55,661 bases of DNA, from NCBI GenBank assembly GCA_016199935.1, contig JACQFS010000169.1, positions 1 through 55,661 of the forward strand, in the 5' to 3' direction. The position numbers and the translations under genes were made by a program. Positions 28,041 to 52,234 of this stretch are shown piece by piece; the first letter of the stretch is position 1, and every line of letters begins with the position of its first letter. The notes below the pieces were generated by a model. It was not told the origin of the DNA. It saw only the letters and a list, made by a program, of their open reading frames with translations, and searched no databases. Source of the stretch: Verrucomicrobiota bacterium (GTDB lineage Bacteria > Verrucomicrobiota > Verrucomicrobiia > Limisphaerales > JACQFS01).

Positions 28041-28502
28041 ATGGCCAACACCTACACCCAGATTTACATCCAAATCGTGTTTGCTGTTGAAGGGCGACAA
28101 AATCTTATCCAGCCCGAGAGGAAGGAAGAACTCCACCGCTACATCACGGGCATCATCACGAAACAGAAGCAGAAGCTCCTTGCCATTCACTGCATGCCGG
28201 ACCACACGCACATCCTCATCGGCATGAAGCCGGATTGCTGCCTTTCTGATTTGGTCGGTGACATCAAGACCGGCTCGACGAACCACATCAACCGGAACCG
28301 TTGGGTGATGGGGCGGTTTTCGTGGCAGGAAGGATTTGGTGCGTTCTCCTACGGGCATTCGCAGTTGGGGACCATCATCCGATACATTCAGAATCAGGAA
28401 AGGCACCACGCGCGGCGGACATTTCGAGAGGAGTATGTGGAGTTCCTCGACAAGTTCGAGGTGCCTCACGATGAGCGTTACATTTTTAAACCGATCGAAT
28501 GA
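28041..28502 (+). CDS. tnpA: IS200/IS605-like (REP-associated) Y1 transposase
   Basis: 153 residues, full length for an HUH single-strand transposase. The HUH motif is His55-Thr-His57 in MPDHTHILIG. The likely nucleophile is Tyr115 in IIRYIQNQERHH, preceded by WQEGFGAFSYGHSQ. These enzymes cut and join single-stranded DNA at hairpins. Short palindromes of the REP kind sit on both sides (27968-28029 and 28525-28690), with no long terminal inverted repeats, as expected for this class. The codon and base composition is less GC-rich than that of the neighbours. It lies between a cytochrome gene and the DUF1501 gene that would normally follow it, so it appears to have inserted into an operon. Confidence 0.92.
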   Translation: MANTYTQIYIQIVFAVEGRQNLIQPERKEELHRYITGIITKQKQKLLAIHCMPDHTHILIGMKPDCCLSDLVGDIKTGSTNHINRNRWVMGRFSWQEGFGAFSYGHSQLGTIIRYIQNQERHHARRTFREEYVEFLDKFEVPHDERYIFKPIE

Positions 28503-43925: not shown

Positions 43926-46900
43926 TCAAACGGGTAAATCGTCGAGCGAGGTCTGTGCCTGCTTCTCCTTCGCCTGCCAGTCGGCGAGACGCTGGCGGTG
44001 TTCTTCGAGCACCTTGGCCGGAACTTTTTCGGTGAATGCGGGATTGGCGAGCTTCTGCTCCACCTTTTCCTTTTCGGCGCGGCACTTCTCCACTTCCTTC
44101 GTGAGGCGGATGCGCTCGGCGGCGAAATCAATCAGGCCGGCGGTGGGGAGGAAAAGTTCGCCCAGCGCATTGCTCGCGCTCGGCGTGCCCTTGTCGGCGA
44201 TCCACGATTTCGCGACGACTTCGACGACCTCGGCGTTGAGGAGCAGCTTGAGCACTTCAATCTCGGCGGCGGGAAGAGTGCCGGCGGGCTTGAGGATGAA
44301 CTTGAGCTTCTTGGCCGGGTCGAGCTTCAGCTCGCGGCGGAGATTGCGGCCGAGTGAGACGAGTTCGTATTTCGCGGCGGCGACTTTGTCCGCGGTGTCA
44401 TCGAGGCCGAAATAGTTTTTCTCTTCGTCGCTCAAAGGCTTGGGCCACGGGGCGACCATGATGGTCTGGCCGCCCTGGTTCTCGGGCAGTTCCTTGCTGA
44501 AACCCATGCCGTGCCAGAGTTCCTCGGTGATGAACGGCAGGAACGGATGGAACAGCCGCAGCGTGTGGCCGAGGACGAAATCCATGACGGCGAGTTTGTT
44601 GTTCCGAAGCTTCAACGCTTCCGGCGAGAAGCGACTCCCGGTGTGTTGTGGATATGCGGACATGTCGGGATGGCGTTCCACTGGCAACGCAGCTTTGGAC
44701 GCTTCGACATACCAGTCGCAATACTCGCTCCAGAAGAACCGGTAGAGTGTCTGCACGGCCGTGCTGAAGTTGTAGCTGGCAAGCGCGTCGCTGACTTCGC
44801 GAATGCCTGTGTCCAGGCGGAGAAGAATCCAATGGTCGTCGCTGGTGAGCAGCGTGGGGTTGATTTCTCCTTCGACTTCCGACTGCGCGGGCGGGGCGCC
44901 CTCGTTCGCAGGCGAGGCGCCTGCGCTACCCTGCATCTGGCGGAAGCGGCAGGCGTTCCAGAGCTTGTTGCAGAAGTTGCGGCCCAGCTCCACGTCCTTC
45001 TCGTCGAAGAGCACGTCCTGACCGAGCGGCGCGCTGCGCATTGTTCCGAAGCGGATGGCGTCGGCGCCGTATTTGGCGATGAGTTCGAGCGGGTCGGGCG
45101 AATTACCGAGGGTCTTCGACATCTTGCGGCCCTGCTTGTCGCGGATGATGCCGGTGAAATAGACGTTGCGGAACGGCATCTCGCCCATGAACTCGTAGCC
45201 CGCCATGATCATGCGCGCGACCCAGAAGAAAATGATGTCCGGCCCGGTGACGAGGTCGGTGGTCGGGTAGAAGGCGCGGAGTGTTGGAGTGTTGGAGTCG
45301 TGGGCCTTGTCGCCGGTCCAGCCCATCGTGGCGAACGGCCAGAGCCAGGAACTGAACCAGGTGTCGAGAACGTCGGGGTCTTGGGTGAAGCCGAGTTTTT
45401 CCCATTCTTTGGATTCAACATCTGAAACCGTTGCGGCTTCAAACAACCATGTTCCGTTCTTAAACCAGTAGCGGAGCGTGGTTTCACATTGGCCGCTCAA
45501 ATTGACAAACTCTGTCGTGTATCCTTCTGTGGCTTTGATTTCAACCAGCTCGTGCAATGTCATTGCGAGCGCAGTTGCCCATTTGCTTGTTCCAAGCTGT
45601 TTCCAATCTCCGTGTTGAATCGATTTACGCCACACCGGAATCCGATGCCCCCACCAAAGCTGGCGGCTGATGCACCAGTCCTGAATGTTCGTCAGCCAGT
45701 GGTCGTAAACCTTCGCCCAGCGGTCGGGATGGAAACGCATCTTGGCGGAGCGCGGAGCTCCAGCTCCGCGTGTTTCTGTTTCACCTTCGCGCAGAGCTGG
45801 AGCTCTGCGCTCCTCCTGCTCCACACACGCCTTCGACACCTCCACGCTCGGATACTTGAGGAACCATTGTTCGCTCAGGCGCGGCTCGATGGGCACGTCC
45901 GCGCGCTGGCTGAAGCCCACGTTGTTCTCGTAGGGGTTCTCCTCCACGAGCGCGCCGATTTCCTTAAGCCGCTCGACCGCCACCTTGCGCGCCTCGAAAC
46001 GGTCCAGCCCCGCGAGTGATTCGCCGGCCAGCTCGTTCATCGTGCCGTTGGGGTTCATGATGTCCACGATGGGCAGCTTGTGGCGCGTGCCGATGTCGAA
46101 GTCCGCCTTGTCGTGCGCGGGCGTCACCTTGAGCACGCCCGTGCCGAACTCAAAGTCCACATGCTCGTCGCCGATGATGGGGATGAGTTTCTGTTCGCGC
46201 GGCAACTGAATGGGCAGCGGTCGCACGATGTGCTTGCCGATGAGATGCGCGTAACGCGGGTCCTTTGGGTTCACGGCCACCGCGGTGTCGCCGGGGATGG
46301 TCTCGGGCCGCGTCGTGGCGATGGTGAGCCAGATTTTGCCGTCGGGTCCGGGGAGCGCGGGCGTCCCGCCTGCTGCATCGGGCGTCGCGCCCGATGCTCG
46401 TTCCTCTGGCTTCAAATGGATGGACGAGGATTCCGGCGCGACGCCGGAATCAGCGACCGGGACGGTCGCGCTCCCCATGGATTCAGCCACCTCGACCTTG
46501 AAGTGATACATGAAACCCTTCTGCGGTTTCATTTCCACTTCCTCGTCGGAGAGCGCGGTCTGCGTGGCGGGGCACCAGTTCACCATGCGTTTGCCGCGAT
46601 AGATGAGGCCTTTCTTGTAGAGGTCCACGAACACGCGCTGCACGTTGCGCACGTAGTCGGGATCCATCGTGAAGCGTTCGCGGGTCCAGTCGCAGGAGCA
46701 GCCGAGTTTCTTGAGCTGCGCGATGATGATGCCGCCGTGCTTTTCCTTCCACGTCCACACGCGCTTGATGAACTCCTCGCGTCCGATGTCCTGCTTGGAT
46801 TTCTTTTCCTCCTTGCGGAGCTGCTTGGCGACCATGCCCTCGGTGGCGATGCCCGCGTGGTCGGTGCCGGGGAGCCAGAGGACTTCCTTGCCGTCCATGC

Positions 46901-47117
46901 GCGCCTTGCGGCTGAGAATGTCCTGGATGGTGTTGTTGAGCACGTGCCCCATGTGGAGCATGCCCGTGACGTTCGGCGGCGGGATGACGATGGAGTAGGC
47001 CGGGCGCTTCTCGGTGACGCGCACGGGGTCGGCGGTGAAGCAGCCCTGCTTCACCCAGAAGTCATACCATTTGTCCTCAACGGACTGCGGCTCGTAGGCT
47101 TTGGGGATTTCGGTCAT
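43926..47117 (-). CDS. valS: Valyl-tRNA synthetase with three repeat-derived insertions
   Basis: 1063 residues, longer than typical bacterial ValS. Charges tRNA-Val in the cytoplasm. The ATP-site signatures are HMGH at residues 55-58 and KMSKT at 665-669. The editing-domain motif TIATTRPETIPGDTAVAVNP and the anticodon-binding and C-terminal coiled-coil regions (IRLTKEVEKCRAEKEKVEQKL, split) are present. Three in-frame insertions derive from palindromic elements: residues about 214-256 (46350-46476), 435-457 (45747-45813) and around 727-743 (44908-44924 region). All lie on apparent surface linkers between intact core motifs. The gene must be functional if single-copy, so the inserts are tolerated. 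It follows the ADP-ribosylglycohydrolase cassette and cimA on the same strand. Confidence 0.96.
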   Translation of the reverse strand: MTEIPKAYEPQSVEDKWYDFWVKQGCFTADPVRVTEKRPAYSIVIPPPNVTGMLHMGHVLNNTIQDILSRKARMDGKEVLWLPGTDHAGIATEGMVAKQLRKEEKKSKQDIGREEFIKRVWTWKEKHGGIIIAQLKKLGCSCDWTRERFTMDPDYVRNVQRVFVDLYKKGLIYRGKRMVNWCPATQTALSDEEVEMKPQKGFMYHFKVEVAESMGSATVPVADSGVAPESSSIHLKPEERASGATPDAAGGTPALPGPDGKIWLTIATTRPETIPGDTAVAVNPKDPRYAHLIGKHIVRPLPIQLPREQKLIPIIGDEHVDFEFGTGVLKVTPAHDKADFDIGTRHKLPIVDIMNPNGTMNELAGESLAGLDRFEARKVAVERLKEIGALVEENPYENNVGFSQRADVPIEPRLSEQWFLKYPSVEVSKACVEQEERRAPALREGETETRGAGAPRSAKMRFHPDRWAKVYDHWLTNIQDWCISRQLWWGHRIPVWRKSIQHGDWKQLGTSKWATALAMTLHELVEIKATEGYTTEFVNLSGQCETTLRYWFKNGTWLFEAATVSDVESKEWEKLGFTQDPDVLDTWFSSWLWPFATMGWTGDKAHDSNTPTLRAFYPTTDLVTGPDIIFFWVARMIMAGYEFMGEMPFRNVYFTGIIRDKQGRKMSKTLGNSPDPLELIAKYGADAIRFGTMRSAPLGQDVLFDEKDVELGRNFCNKLWNACRFRQMQGSAGASPANEGAPPAQSEVEGEINPTLLTSDDHWILLRLDTGIREVSDALASYNFSTAVQTLYRFFWSEYCDWYVEASKAALPVERHPDMSAYPQHTGSRFSPEALKLRNNKLAVMDFVLGHTLRLFHPFLPFITEELWHGMGFSKELPENQGGQTIMVAPWPKPLSDEEKNYFGLDDTADKVAAAKYELVSLGRNLRRELKLDPAKKLKFILKPAGTLPAAEIEVLKLLLNAEVVEVVAKSWIADKGTPSASNALGELFLPTAGLIDFAAERIRLTKEVEKCRAEKEKVEQKLANPAFTEKVPAKVLEEHRQRLADWQAKEKQAQTSLDDLPV
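44908..44924. repeat. Palindrome in valS, translated
   Basis: GCAGGCG-AGG-CGCCTGC, a 7-bp perfect stem. It is part of a GC-rich stretch translated as GSAGASPANEGAPPAQ. No second arm was found, so this is a half-element. Confidence 0.7.
45747..45813. repeat. In-frame inverted repeat, family F, in valS
   Basis: Arms 45747-45770 and 45790-45813 match at 22 of 24 positions, spacer 19 bp. Each arm is itself a hairpin: 45751-45770 (CGCGGAGCT-CC-AGCTCCGCG) and 45789-45810 (GCGCAGAGCT-GG-AGCTCTGCGC). The two mismatches between arms are paired within each hairpin, as compensatory changes would be. The right arm occurs again, identical, at 53197-53220. Confidence 0.92.
46350..46476. repeat. 127-bp multi-palindrome element in valS, family G
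   Basis: Outer ends GGGGAGCGC (46350-46358) and GCGCTCCCC (46468-46476). Inside are 46357-46369 (GCGGG-CGT-CCCGC), 46375-46397 (10-bp stem, TCG loop), 46429-46451 (GATTCCGGCG-CGA-CGCCGGAATC) and 46453-46469 (GCGACC/GGTCGC). Translated in-frame as part of ValS. Confidence 0.9.
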
Positions 47118-47128
47118 CTGAAAAAGAT

Positions 47129-47161
47129 TTTAACCACGGATGGACACGGATGGACACGGAT
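47129..47161. repeat. 33-bp inverted repeat flanking the ADP-ribosylglycohydrolase gene (left copy)
   Basis: TTTAACCACGGATGGACACG and the following GATGGACACGGAT. It matches the reverse complement of 48088-48120 at 32 of 33 positions. It lies 11 bp from the valS start codon. Confidence 0.93.
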
Positions 47162-47166
47162 AATCG

Positions 47167-48099
47167 TCAAGCACCGCGGAGAGCTTCAACTCCGAGTGGC
47201 TCGCGAGAACTTTGCCATTGGTCTGGAACTCCCAGTTGTCCGACGGAGAGCACGACTATGCTTCCGACAATCGCGCAGGTGGTGTCTCGGTCGCCAAAGC
47301 AACCGACGGTGGCCCAAAGAGCCTCCTCATAATCATCAAGGTGCTTGGCCGCAGACCAGACACAAAATGGAACCGTATTCGCTGAAATGATTTTGTGTCC
47401 GTTTCCGAGCATGACGGCCGCAGCGTCCGTTGGCGAAGTGAGCTTGATGTCCAAAGCCTTCTTCAGCCCCTTTCGTGTTTCTCCGTCCGGCGTGTTTTCG
47501 TGAACAAACGAAACCAAATCTTTGGCGTCTATCTTTCGGTTTCCTGCGTGGTTCACTACCCAGGCGGCGGCCATAGCAATGGCGATGGCTCCAGCCTTGC
47601 CGTCGGGATGCCAGTGCGTGATTTCGGCGGAAAGCGAAGCTTCTCGAATTACGGCCTCCACATCATCGGCAAAGTATGCGCCTATTGGCGCCGCGCGCAT
47701 CGCGGCACCGTTGCCCATGGAACCCGCACCATCAAAGACTTCCGCCGTCATCTTTTGCCAAGGCGCACCGAATGAGATAGCGCGCAAGGTGGATGCCGCT
47801 GTGCTTCCGTAGCCTCGGTTTGGCTCACGGGAATACTCCGCAGCGAAATGTGAGGCCAGCAAGTCCTGCTCAATTCTTCCTTGCTCAGCCAACACGCGGA
47901 CAATCGAGCGGGCCATAATGGTGTCGTCGGTGTAGAACCAAGGGGCCGGAGGAGCGTGCCGTCCGGCAATTCTTCCTTCTACAATCGTGCGGTCAGTGAA
48001 GAAGCATTCACCGAACGCATCACCAACGGACAGCCCCTCCAAAGACAGAAGGGCACGTCCGAGTCTTCTTTGGTGGTCGGATGGTAAATCCGTGTTCAT
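47167..48099 (-). CDS. ADP-ribosylglycohydrolase-family protein in an inverted-repeat cassette
   Basis: 310 residues. Members remove ADP-ribose from proteins or small molecules using two magnesium ions. Visible motifs are GLSVGDAFGE (N-terminal metal loop), FYTDDTIMA (TDDT), GSMGNGAAMRAAPIGAYF and GDRDTTCAIVG near the C-terminus (metal-binding DxDT-like, here DRDT). The ATG start (complement of 48097-48099) lies inside the 33-bp flanking repeat, so the first four residues, MNTD, are repeat-encoded. Base composition is lower in GC than that of valS and cimA. The cassette sits between those genes with only 3 bp to the cimA stop and 11 bp to the valS start. Its cellular target is unknown. Confidence 0.88.
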   Translation of the reverse strand: MNTDLPSDHQRRLGRALLSLEGLSVGDAFGECFFTDRTIVEGRIAGRHAPPAPWFYTDDTIMARSIVRVLAEQGRIEQDLLASHFAAEYSREPNRGYGSTAASTLRAISFGAPWQKMTAEVFDGAGSMGNGAAMRAAPIGAYFADDVEAVIREASLSAEITHWHPDGKAGAIAIAMAAAWVVNHAGNRKIDAKDLVSFVHENTPDGETRKGLKKALDIKLTSPTDAAAVMLGNGHKIISANTVPFCVWSAAKHLDDYEEALWATVGCFGDRDTTCAIVGSIVVLSVGQLGVPDQWQSSREPLGVEALRGA

Positions 48100-48120
48100 C
48101 CGTGTCCATCCGTGGTTAAA
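48088..48120. repeat. 33-bp inverted repeat flanking the ADP-ribosylglycohydrolase gene (right copy)
   Basis: ATCCGTGTTCATCCGTGTCC and the following ATCCGTGGTTAAA, reverse complement of 47129-47161 except at one base. It contains the start codon of the enclosed gene and ends three bases before the cimA stop codon. Confidence 0.93.
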
Positions 48121-48123
48121 AAA

Positions 48124-49683
48124 TCATTTCCTCATCAGCGCATACTCCATCGAGTCCACCAGCGCGCGGAGCGAGGCTTCGATGATGTTGTCGTGGACGC
48201 CCACGGTGCCCCATTCGCGGCGGCCGTCGGTGGATTCGATGAGCACGCGGGTCTTGGCGGCGGTGCCGGTGCCGGAATCGAGGATGCGCACCTTGTAATC
48301 GGTGAGCTTTACCTTCCTGAGGCGCGGGAAAAACTTCATCAGCGACGCGCGCAACGCCGAGTCGAGCGCGTTCACCGGACCATCGCCCTCAGCCACGGTC
48401 TGCGAGGCTTTGCCGTTCACGCGCACTTTCACCGTGGCTTCGCAGATGGAATTGTCGCCCACGCGACGCATCGAGACGTGATACGCGTCCACGACGAACG
48501 GAAGTTCGCGATGCGACATGATCTTCTTGATGAGCAACGCGAGCGATCCCTCGGCCGCCTCGAACTCGCAGCCTTCGTGTTCGAGCTCCTTGATGCGCTT
48601 GAGGATGTCCTTCAGCTCGGGCGTGTCGTTGGTGAGCTTGAAGCCCAGTTCCTGCGCCTTCATCACGATGTTGCTGCGCCCGGCGAGGTCACTGATGAGC
48701 ACGTTGCGCGCGTTGCCGACGAGCGTCGGGTCAATGTGCTCGTAGCTCGCGGCGAGTTTCTGCACGGCGTTGACGTGCGTCCCGCCCTTGTGCGCGAACG
48801 CCGCCGAGCCGACCCACGGCAGGCGCGGGTTGTGGCGGATGTTCGCGATCTCGTCCACGAACAGGGAAAGCTCCTTGAGCTTCGCGAGCGACCTCGCGGG
48901 CACGCAGGTCTTCTTCAACTTCAAAGCCACGCAGGCGATGACACTGATGATGTTGCAATTTCCCGTGCGCTCGCCGTAGCCGTTCACCGTGCCTTGCACG
49001 TGGCACGCGCCGACTTCGAGCGCGGCGATTGCGTTGGCCACGCCCATGCCGATGTCGTCGTGCGTGTGGATGCCCACTTTGCAATTCAGTTTCCCCACCG
49101 CCGTGCGCGTGATGTTCGCGACCTCGCCCGGCAGACAGCCGCCGTTGGTATCGCACAGCACCACGAAATCCGCGCCGGCCTTTTCCGCGGCCTGCCAGGT
49201 GGCGAGCGCGTAATCGGCATCGAGCTTGTAGCCGTCGAACGCGTGCTCGGCGTCGTAGATGACGAACTTCCCATGGTCCTTCAGGAAGCGCACGGTGTCG
49301 GCGATCATCGCGAGGTTTTCCTCGGGCGTGCAGCGGAGGACTTCCTTCACGTGCAGCATGGAGGTCTTGCCGTAGATGGTGACCACGGGCGTGCCGGCCT
49401 CGATGAGCAGGCGCACCTGGTCGTCGCTCTCCACGGCCACGCCCTTCTTGCGCGTGGAGCCGAAGGCCGCGAGTCGCGCGTTCTTGAACTTCTTCCGCTT
49501 CGCCTGCTTGAAGAACTCGATGTCCTTCGGATTAGAGCCGGGCCAGCCGCCTTCGATGTAATGAACCCCGAACGCATCAAGCTTCTCGGCGATGCGCAGC
49601 TTGTCTGCGACCGAGAAGTTCACGCCTTCGCCCTGCGAGCCGTCGCGCAGGGTCGTATCGTAGATTTCGACTTGAGGTTTCAT
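48124..49683 (-). CDS. cimA: (R)-citramalate synthase
   Basis: 519 residues from the ATG complementary to 49681-49683. Condenses acetyl-CoA with pyruvate to citramalate, feeding a threonine-independent route to isoleucine. The HMGL-like TIM barrel shows IYDTTLRDGSQGEGVNFS near the N-terminus, GWPGSNPKDIEFF, CDTNGGCLPGEVANI and GIHTHDDIGMGVANAI (metal-binding HTHDD), then VQGTVNGYGERTGNCN. A C-terminal LeuA-type regulatory domain (FVVDAYHVSMRR, VNGKASQTVAEGDGPVNALD) probably binds isoleucine as inhibitor. The full-length cimA subtype (LRDG.QGEGV, EGGWPGSNPKD) separates it from LeuA and homocitrate synthase. The gene ends three bases from the repeat-bounded cassette. Confidence 0.93.
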   Translation of the reverse strand: MKPQVEIYDTTLRDGSQGEGVNFSVADKLRIAEKLDAFGVHYIEGGWPGSNPKDIEFFKQAKRKKFKNARLAAFGSTRKKGVAVESDDQVRLLIEAGTPVVTIYGKTSMLHVKEVLRCTPEENLAMIADTVRFLKDHGKFVIYDAEHAFDGYKLDADYALATWQAAEKAGADFVVLCDTNGGCLPGEVANITRTAVGKLNCKVGIHTHDDIGMGVANAIAALEVGACHVQGTVNGYGERTGNCNIISVIACVALKLKKTCVPARSLAKLKELSLFVDEIANIRHNPRLPWVGSAAFAHKGGTHVNAVQKLAASYEHIDPTLVGNARNVLISDLAGRSNIVMKAQELGFKLTNDTPELKDILKRIKELEHEGCEFEAAEGSLALLIKKIMSHRELPFVVDAYHVSMRRVGDNSICEATVKVRVNGKASQTVAEGDGPVNALDSALRASLMKFFPRLRKVKLTDYKVRILDSGTGTAAKTRVLIESTDGRREWGTVGVHDNIIEASLRALVDSMEYALMRK

Positions 49684-49798
49684 GGAATCCCGCCGATGCG
49701 GGAGCGGGATTACTACGCCACGAAGGGGTGGAAGCAAAGGAGAAATCCGGGCGCGAACCGCGGCGCGGAAGCGCGGACAACGTGGCGGGGATCAACCG

Positions 49799-52083: not shown

Positions 52084-52159
52084 GCGGGGCTCGGAGGTTT
52101 TGGTTTTGCGTTGCGGAAAATGCGACTGTTACGCGGAAGCGGGTATTCAGGGATATTTA

Positions 52160-52225
52160 ACCACGGAAGACACGGAGCACACAGAATGGAAAACTCATTT
52201 CCGTGTGCTCCGTGTTTTCCGTGGT
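52160..52225. repeat. Inverted repeat, family H, between SGNH and PIG-L genes
   Basis: Arms 52160-52182 and 52203-52225 match at 22 of 23 positions (ACCACGGAAGACACGGAGC), spacer 20 bp. The CCACGGA words resemble the 33-bp repeat at 47129. It lies nine bases after the PIG-L stop on the minus strand, so it could act as that gene's terminator, though no T-run follows. Confidence 0.9.
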
Positions 52226-52234
52226 CGCACGTGC

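Follow-up and report, generated by a model that had tools for sequence, protein, structure and literature searches.

An ADP-ribosylglycohydrolase gene in an inverted-repeat frame between cimA and valS of a verrucomicrobial genome: a possible exchange of content in a GxxExxY-type cassette

The window analysed here is the whole stretch of 55,661 nucleotides of contig JACQFS010000169.1, from the draft genome (260 contigs) of a Verrucomicrobiota bacterium of the order Limisphaerales. Between cimA and valS it holds a single gene, encoding an ADP-ribosylglycohydrolase (ARH), enclosed by two inverted arms. The unit and its neighbours are as follows.

43926..47117, minus strand: valS, the downstream neighbour (ORF and Pfam match), whose start is 10–11 bp from the left arm
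47128..47161, plus strand: left arm, TTTTAACCACGGATGGACACGGATGGACACGGAT, three ~10-bp units with a period of 10
47167..48099, minus strand: ADP-ribosylglycohydrolase (ARH3-like) gene, 310 aa, intact (PF03747 and motifs)
48088..48121, minus strand: right arm, which repeats the left arm in inverted orientation (33/34) and holds the ARH ATG in its last unit
48124..49737, minus strand: cimA/leuA-type synthase gene, the upstream neighbour (ORF and Pfam match; start codon uncertain), whose stop is 2–3 bp from the right arm

The arms (47128–47161 and 48088–48121) form an inverted repeat of 34 nt, complementary at 33/34 positions (97%), with 926 nt between them; the original prediction had described the same feature one base shorter, as 33-bp arms matching at 32 positions. 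The ATG of the ARH gene (48097–48099) is within the right arm and its stop (TGA, 47167–47169) is 5 bp short of the left arm, so that a single ORF abuts both arms. According to the ORFs and the Pfam matches, valS starts at position 47117 and cimA stops at 48124, and the tight fit that had been predicted, 3 bp from the cimA stop and 11 bp from the valS start, agrees with our measurements. Two matches to the arm were found in the window, against zero expected from shuffled sequences. The GC content of the ARH gene is 56.7%, compared to 61–64% in the neighbouring genes, and its GC3 is 57.9%, compared to 81–88%. The unit carries ARH alone; the description of one lower-GC gene whose start codon is in the right arm, with no transposase gene of its own, was correct in every respect. 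No match to Rfam or PADLOC and no tRNA was found. In the minimum-energy RNA structure the arms are paired (z of −6.9 for the whole 1000 nt).

The identification of the gene product as an ADP-ribosylglycohydrolase is confirmed by a match to the full PF03747 domain (E=5.7e-51, 174 bits for a cut-off of 26.2, residues 20–293). The residues T57, D58 and D59 (TDD, 57–59) and D270, D272 and T273 (DxDT) are invariant among homologues; we take them to be the metal ligands of ARH3, and the solved chains closest to the protein are those of ARH3 (E 1e-21). The full-length domain and the conserved metal-ligand motifs are as in the ARH3/DraG family (PF03747), and the product is probably an ordinary ARH3-like hydrolase, which, judging from its sequence, would hydrolyze ADP-ribosyl bonds and remove ADP-ribose. 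In most relatives of the order, on the contrary, a cREC_REC domain is fused ahead of ARH, whereas the protein of the window is standalone and begins in the arm.

None of the approximately 120 ARH homologue loci (in the order, in other phyla and on one viral contig) carries these arms, which excludes ARH as their usual content, and none of 19 ARH relatives is arm-enclosed according to the scoring rule that we applied to GxxExxY genes (see below). The original prediction saw in the unit a minimal mobile cassette moving ARH. The arm-bounded, one-gene unit without transposase is there, but the claim that the arms move ARH is not supported, considering these arm-free homologues, the closest of which (L344) is at another locus. 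The L344 protein is 62% identical to that of the window and standalone, its gene has a frame break, and the two group together (SH-aLRT 94) in a tree that includes all genomes of the order. It begins with MNMENETSVLPPDH where the protein of the window has MNTDLPSDH, which shows that no more than the initial codons of the ARH gene come from the arm. Since this sister is standalone and has a full N-terminus, there is no need to assume that the gene of the window is a cREC–ARH fusion truncated at the arm. Nor do we claim a cross-phylum transfer: a first tree grouped the protein with sequences from Myxococcota and Planctomycetota, but the full set of order genomes moved it beside L344. ARH is detected (E<=1e-50) in 27/320 genomes of the order and as a single copy in the source genome; plasmids and phages give only distant matches. 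Identical ARH sequences connect genomes of the order with records named Limisphaerales, Pedosphaera and Verrucomicrobia subdivision 3, which places the order in Verrucomicrobiota. Because the homologue loci are arm-free, we consider ARH an accessory gene with a patchy distribution in the order, which has come to lie in the frame in this lineage. An ARH gene of a Phycisphaerae (L110, 2752–4219) lies between copies of a ~190-bp repeat (GGCAGGTGCTTGCAACTGCC); these repeats are direct and unrelated to the arms, and we treated the arrangement as a coincidence.

The arms belong to a family built of three ~10-bp units, CACGGATGGA; the units in the window are AACCACGGATGGACACGGATGGACACGGAT. The source genome contains 42 matches to the arm 30-mer with at most 3 mismatches, and 93 matches to the 21-mer, while the reversed controls give none; the arm 20-mer is found in 61/116 genomes of the order (control zero). 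Many dispersed ends are a trait of MITEs and transposons. The sequence AACCAC is constant among the copies while the first flanking base varies, which identifies the outer end. The source genome also contains numerous further arm sequences constructed in the same way, and a short inverted-repeat element of related build, with no gene, occurs in the window at 52159–52226 (AACCACGGAAGACACGGAGCACAC ... GTGTGCTCCGTGTTTTCCGTGGT). Most of the near-copies form convergent pairs without a gene. Our survey of framed genes covered part of the loci of the source genome; in these, 14 convergent arm pairs, 80–338 bp long, contain no gene, and the unit of the window (986 bp) is the only convergent pair that contains an intact gene. 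By eye, no clear target-site duplication is seen at this unit or at the short elements, in a comparison that includes no closely related empty site.

MITEs and the REP elements of REP/RAYT systems are intergenic inverted-repeat elements of 70–300 bp, present in many copies and devoid of their own transposase, the enzyme gene being elsewhere and flanked by the same repeats (PMC3733652). The arms are like them in that their inverted ends are dispersed and come without a transposase. They differ in consisting of tandem 10-bp units, and in that one unit encloses a full gene. It could be that a REP-associated tyrosine transposase (Y1_Tnp) moves the arms, since such enzymes move REPs in other bacteria (PMC3733652) and the genome has four matches to this family, one of which is in the window. 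However, the Y1_Tnp genes are flanked by different repeats, the nearest arm-like sequence within 1.5 kb having 7–8 mismatches out of 20; none of those of the source genome, the only transposase family scanned, shares the arm ends. The arm is not itself palindromic and has no GTAG tag, so the GTAG-tagged palindrome beside a RAYT gene is absent too. We therefore rejected Y1_Tnp as the mobiliser of the arms, an explanation that we consider very improbable. The Y1_Tnp gene of the window (28053–28397) has its own inverted repeats (AGCTCCGTAGGAGCGACACGAAA), and another Y1_Tnp gene (L333) comes with a perfect 32-nt inverted pair, CCTCTCATTAACACCCCGCTTTAGCGGGGTGA.

The original prediction called for a search for the same arms around other single genes. 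Analogous inverted arms do frame other genes. The same scoring rule was applied to GxxExxY genes, four-helix-bundle genes (TIGR02436), ARH genes and random intervals: inverted arms enclose 19/27 GxxExxY loci across the order and 19/29 four-helix-bundle loci, compared to 11 of 800 random intervals of 320–340 bp (~1.4%) and 1 of 400 random intervals of 900 bp. The enclosure rates are approximate, because we surveyed the best-scoring loci of each family rather than a random sample, and because the arm rule was set after the first cases, but they exceed the rates of random intervals by a wide margin. Each of the two families is present in 31/38 genomes of the order, and each is associated with its own type of arm: the period is 8–12 bp (mostly 9–10) around GxxExxY genes and 7–8 bp (mostly 7) around four-helix-bundle genes. 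The period of 10 seen in the window is within the GxxExxY range. GxxExxY proteins belong to the PD-(D/E)XK nuclease superfamily (PF13366); their genes are present in the source genome, and one of them is in related arms (L070). The framed four-helix-bundle genes (19/29, loci L302–L330) are assigned to a non-rRNA context by family match alone. Other long arm pairs in the 20-kb stretches contain no convincing gene, or consist of whole elements on either side of a host gene. Beside ftsY (L282, 1131–2211), CCACGGATG arms surround a broken gene (196 + 87 aa) with no family match, the only other non-GxxExxY gene content that we saw in CCACGGATG arms. Since such arms usually hold GxxExxY or nothing in this order, ARH appears to be an exceptional content of a pre-existing kind of frame.

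The cimA–valS junction could be compared in 53 relatives of the order in which valS follows cimA within ~1.2 kb; the family of the window is represented among the genomes compared by the source genome alone. The ARH-free junction that had been anticipated in relatives is found in 53/53, many of them only 20–140 bp long; the opposite outcome, an ARH gene at this locus without arms in all relatives, is not what we see, since 0/53 have ARH at this place. Of these relatives, 20 have a short or empty junction, 9 a short inverted-repeat element, another 9 a GxxExxY gene (with arms detected in 8 of these 9), 5 a ThuA-like gene, and the remaining 10 other sequences, including toxin–antitoxin-like pairs. 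The presence of ThuA-like genes or toxin–antitoxin-like pairs (L186, L190, L201, L205, L216, L224 and L236) shows that this junction is a frequent place of insertion.

These comparisons bear on an alternative according to which the two arms inserted independently around a resident ARH gene, or are merely terminators or regulatory hairpins. Some arms (L004, L007, L011 and L024) do stand alone, with no partner within 1.5 kb. But only 1 of 400 random intervals of 900 bp is arm-enclosed, both arms of the window are within 5 bp of the ORF, and the gene is missing from the junction of all 53 relatives, so that this explanation is hardly tenable.

At the junction of L198 (genome G072), CCACGGATG arms frame a GxxExxY gene (PF13366, E=2.5e-33). 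Past the cimA stop, L198 and the window share the outer edge (TAATTTTTTTAACCAC and TGATTTTTTAACCAC, respectively). The ATG of the GxxExxY gene is in the arm (ATGGACACGGATTTA, giving MDTDL), like that of the ARH gene (ATGAACACGGATTTA, MNTDL); the stop is 6 bp from the other arm in L198 and 5 bp in the window, and in both cases a single ORF abuts both arms. The junctions of L187 and L237 contain decayed GxxExxY genes in the same or nearly the same arms, and at L202 the same arms form a short element. One place and one frame thus hold different contents in different genomes. Finding CCACGGATG arms at this junction in other families could reflect independent insertions at a favoured site rather than one inherited element.

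More generally, the arm-framed GxxExxY genes of the order (TIGR04256 / PF13366 PDDEXK_3) resemble the unit of the window: one gene, arms of ~30–40 bp made of 9–10-bp units, a start in or next to one arm and a stop just before the other. The unit of the window has about three units at a period within 8–12 bp and a single abutting ORF, but no GxxExxY gene; with ARH where the nuclease-family gene would be, it is a variant rather than a plain member of the class, and differs in the same way from L198, whose arms and junction it shares. We propose that it is an inverted-repeat cassette of the GxxExxY type in which a foreign-looking ARH gene has taken the place of the original one, a reading whose chances we consider about even. 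An arm-framed element would have been present between cimA and valS, or would have arrived there, and recombination or repair at the arms would then have exchanged its content for ARH. The most likely candidate for the cutting enzyme is a GxxExxY nuclease that would act in trans. To our knowledge, GxxExxY has never been demonstrated to move DNA; a full-text literature search that left most subscription journals and preprints outside found no such demonstration, and no published account of the GxxExxY arm arrangement, which neither of the two papers mentioning GxxExxY deals with. Against replacement, we note that ARH with arms occurs only once, that target-site duplications were not seen, that no relative of the same family shows the event, and that the genome is a draft.

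It is also possible, although we are inclined to doubt it, that ARH landed by illegitimate recombination in the loop of a resident short element, or of a dead GxxExxY cassette, so that the arms never captured or moved it. Short elements with the same arms exist at the junction (L202) and genome-wide, and no other ARH carries arms, as this scenario would have it. On the contrary, after a random hit in a loop of 20–80 bp one would normally expect remnants of the loop on at least one side of the gene, whereas here the fit is tight on both, with the ATG in one arm and only 5 bp between the stop and the other, and reproduces the layout of the GxxExxY gene in L198. Alternatively, arm–ARH–arm as a whole may be a non-autonomous mobile element, mobilised in trans, that arrived intact between cimA and valS. 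Its layout is like that of a mobile element, its GC3 is low, the arms are dispersed and ARH is patchy (27/320); yet the ~120 homologue loci have no arms, the gene is in single copy and no target-site duplication was seen, and we consider this improbable. A recurrent repeat frame with exchanged content describes the unit better than a demonstrated mobile ARH cassette.

The arms may also matter at the RNA level. An ORF within an inverted-repeat loop, expected to form an RNA stem, has already been described: the intervening sequence (IVS) of the 23S rRNA of Coxiella has an ORF (S23p/four-helix-bundle) in the loop of a terminal inverted repeat of ~28–34 bp, and is cut by RNase III (PMC4990558). 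The IVS is in 23S rRNA with a four-helix-bundle ORF, whereas the unit of the window is between protein genes and contains ARH. In a cimA–ARH–valS transcript, the arms can pair as a ~33-bp stem that contains the ARH start codon. Since the arms can pair in this way, processing of the message by RNase III, demonstrated for the IVS, is plausible here by analogy.

More tentatively, arms of ~10-bp units together with GxxExxY may define an undescribed class of minimal mobile elements, of which the gene-less pairs would be the non-autonomous copies; the frame would be reloadable, with ARH a caught example, and the four-helix-bundle genes with their arms of 7-bp units would form a parallel class. If the exchange did occur, it would mean that very short, transposase-free frames can swap the genes they hold without leaving their position in an operon, which would give bacteria a small route to take in single genes. 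The reading also ties GxxExxY and four-helix-bundle proteins, which are very common but have no known role, to specific types of repeats, and this makes their function testable, since each would be expected to act on the type of arm that frames its gene. It would further account for some of the intergenic inverted repeats that abound in Verrucomicrobiota genomes.
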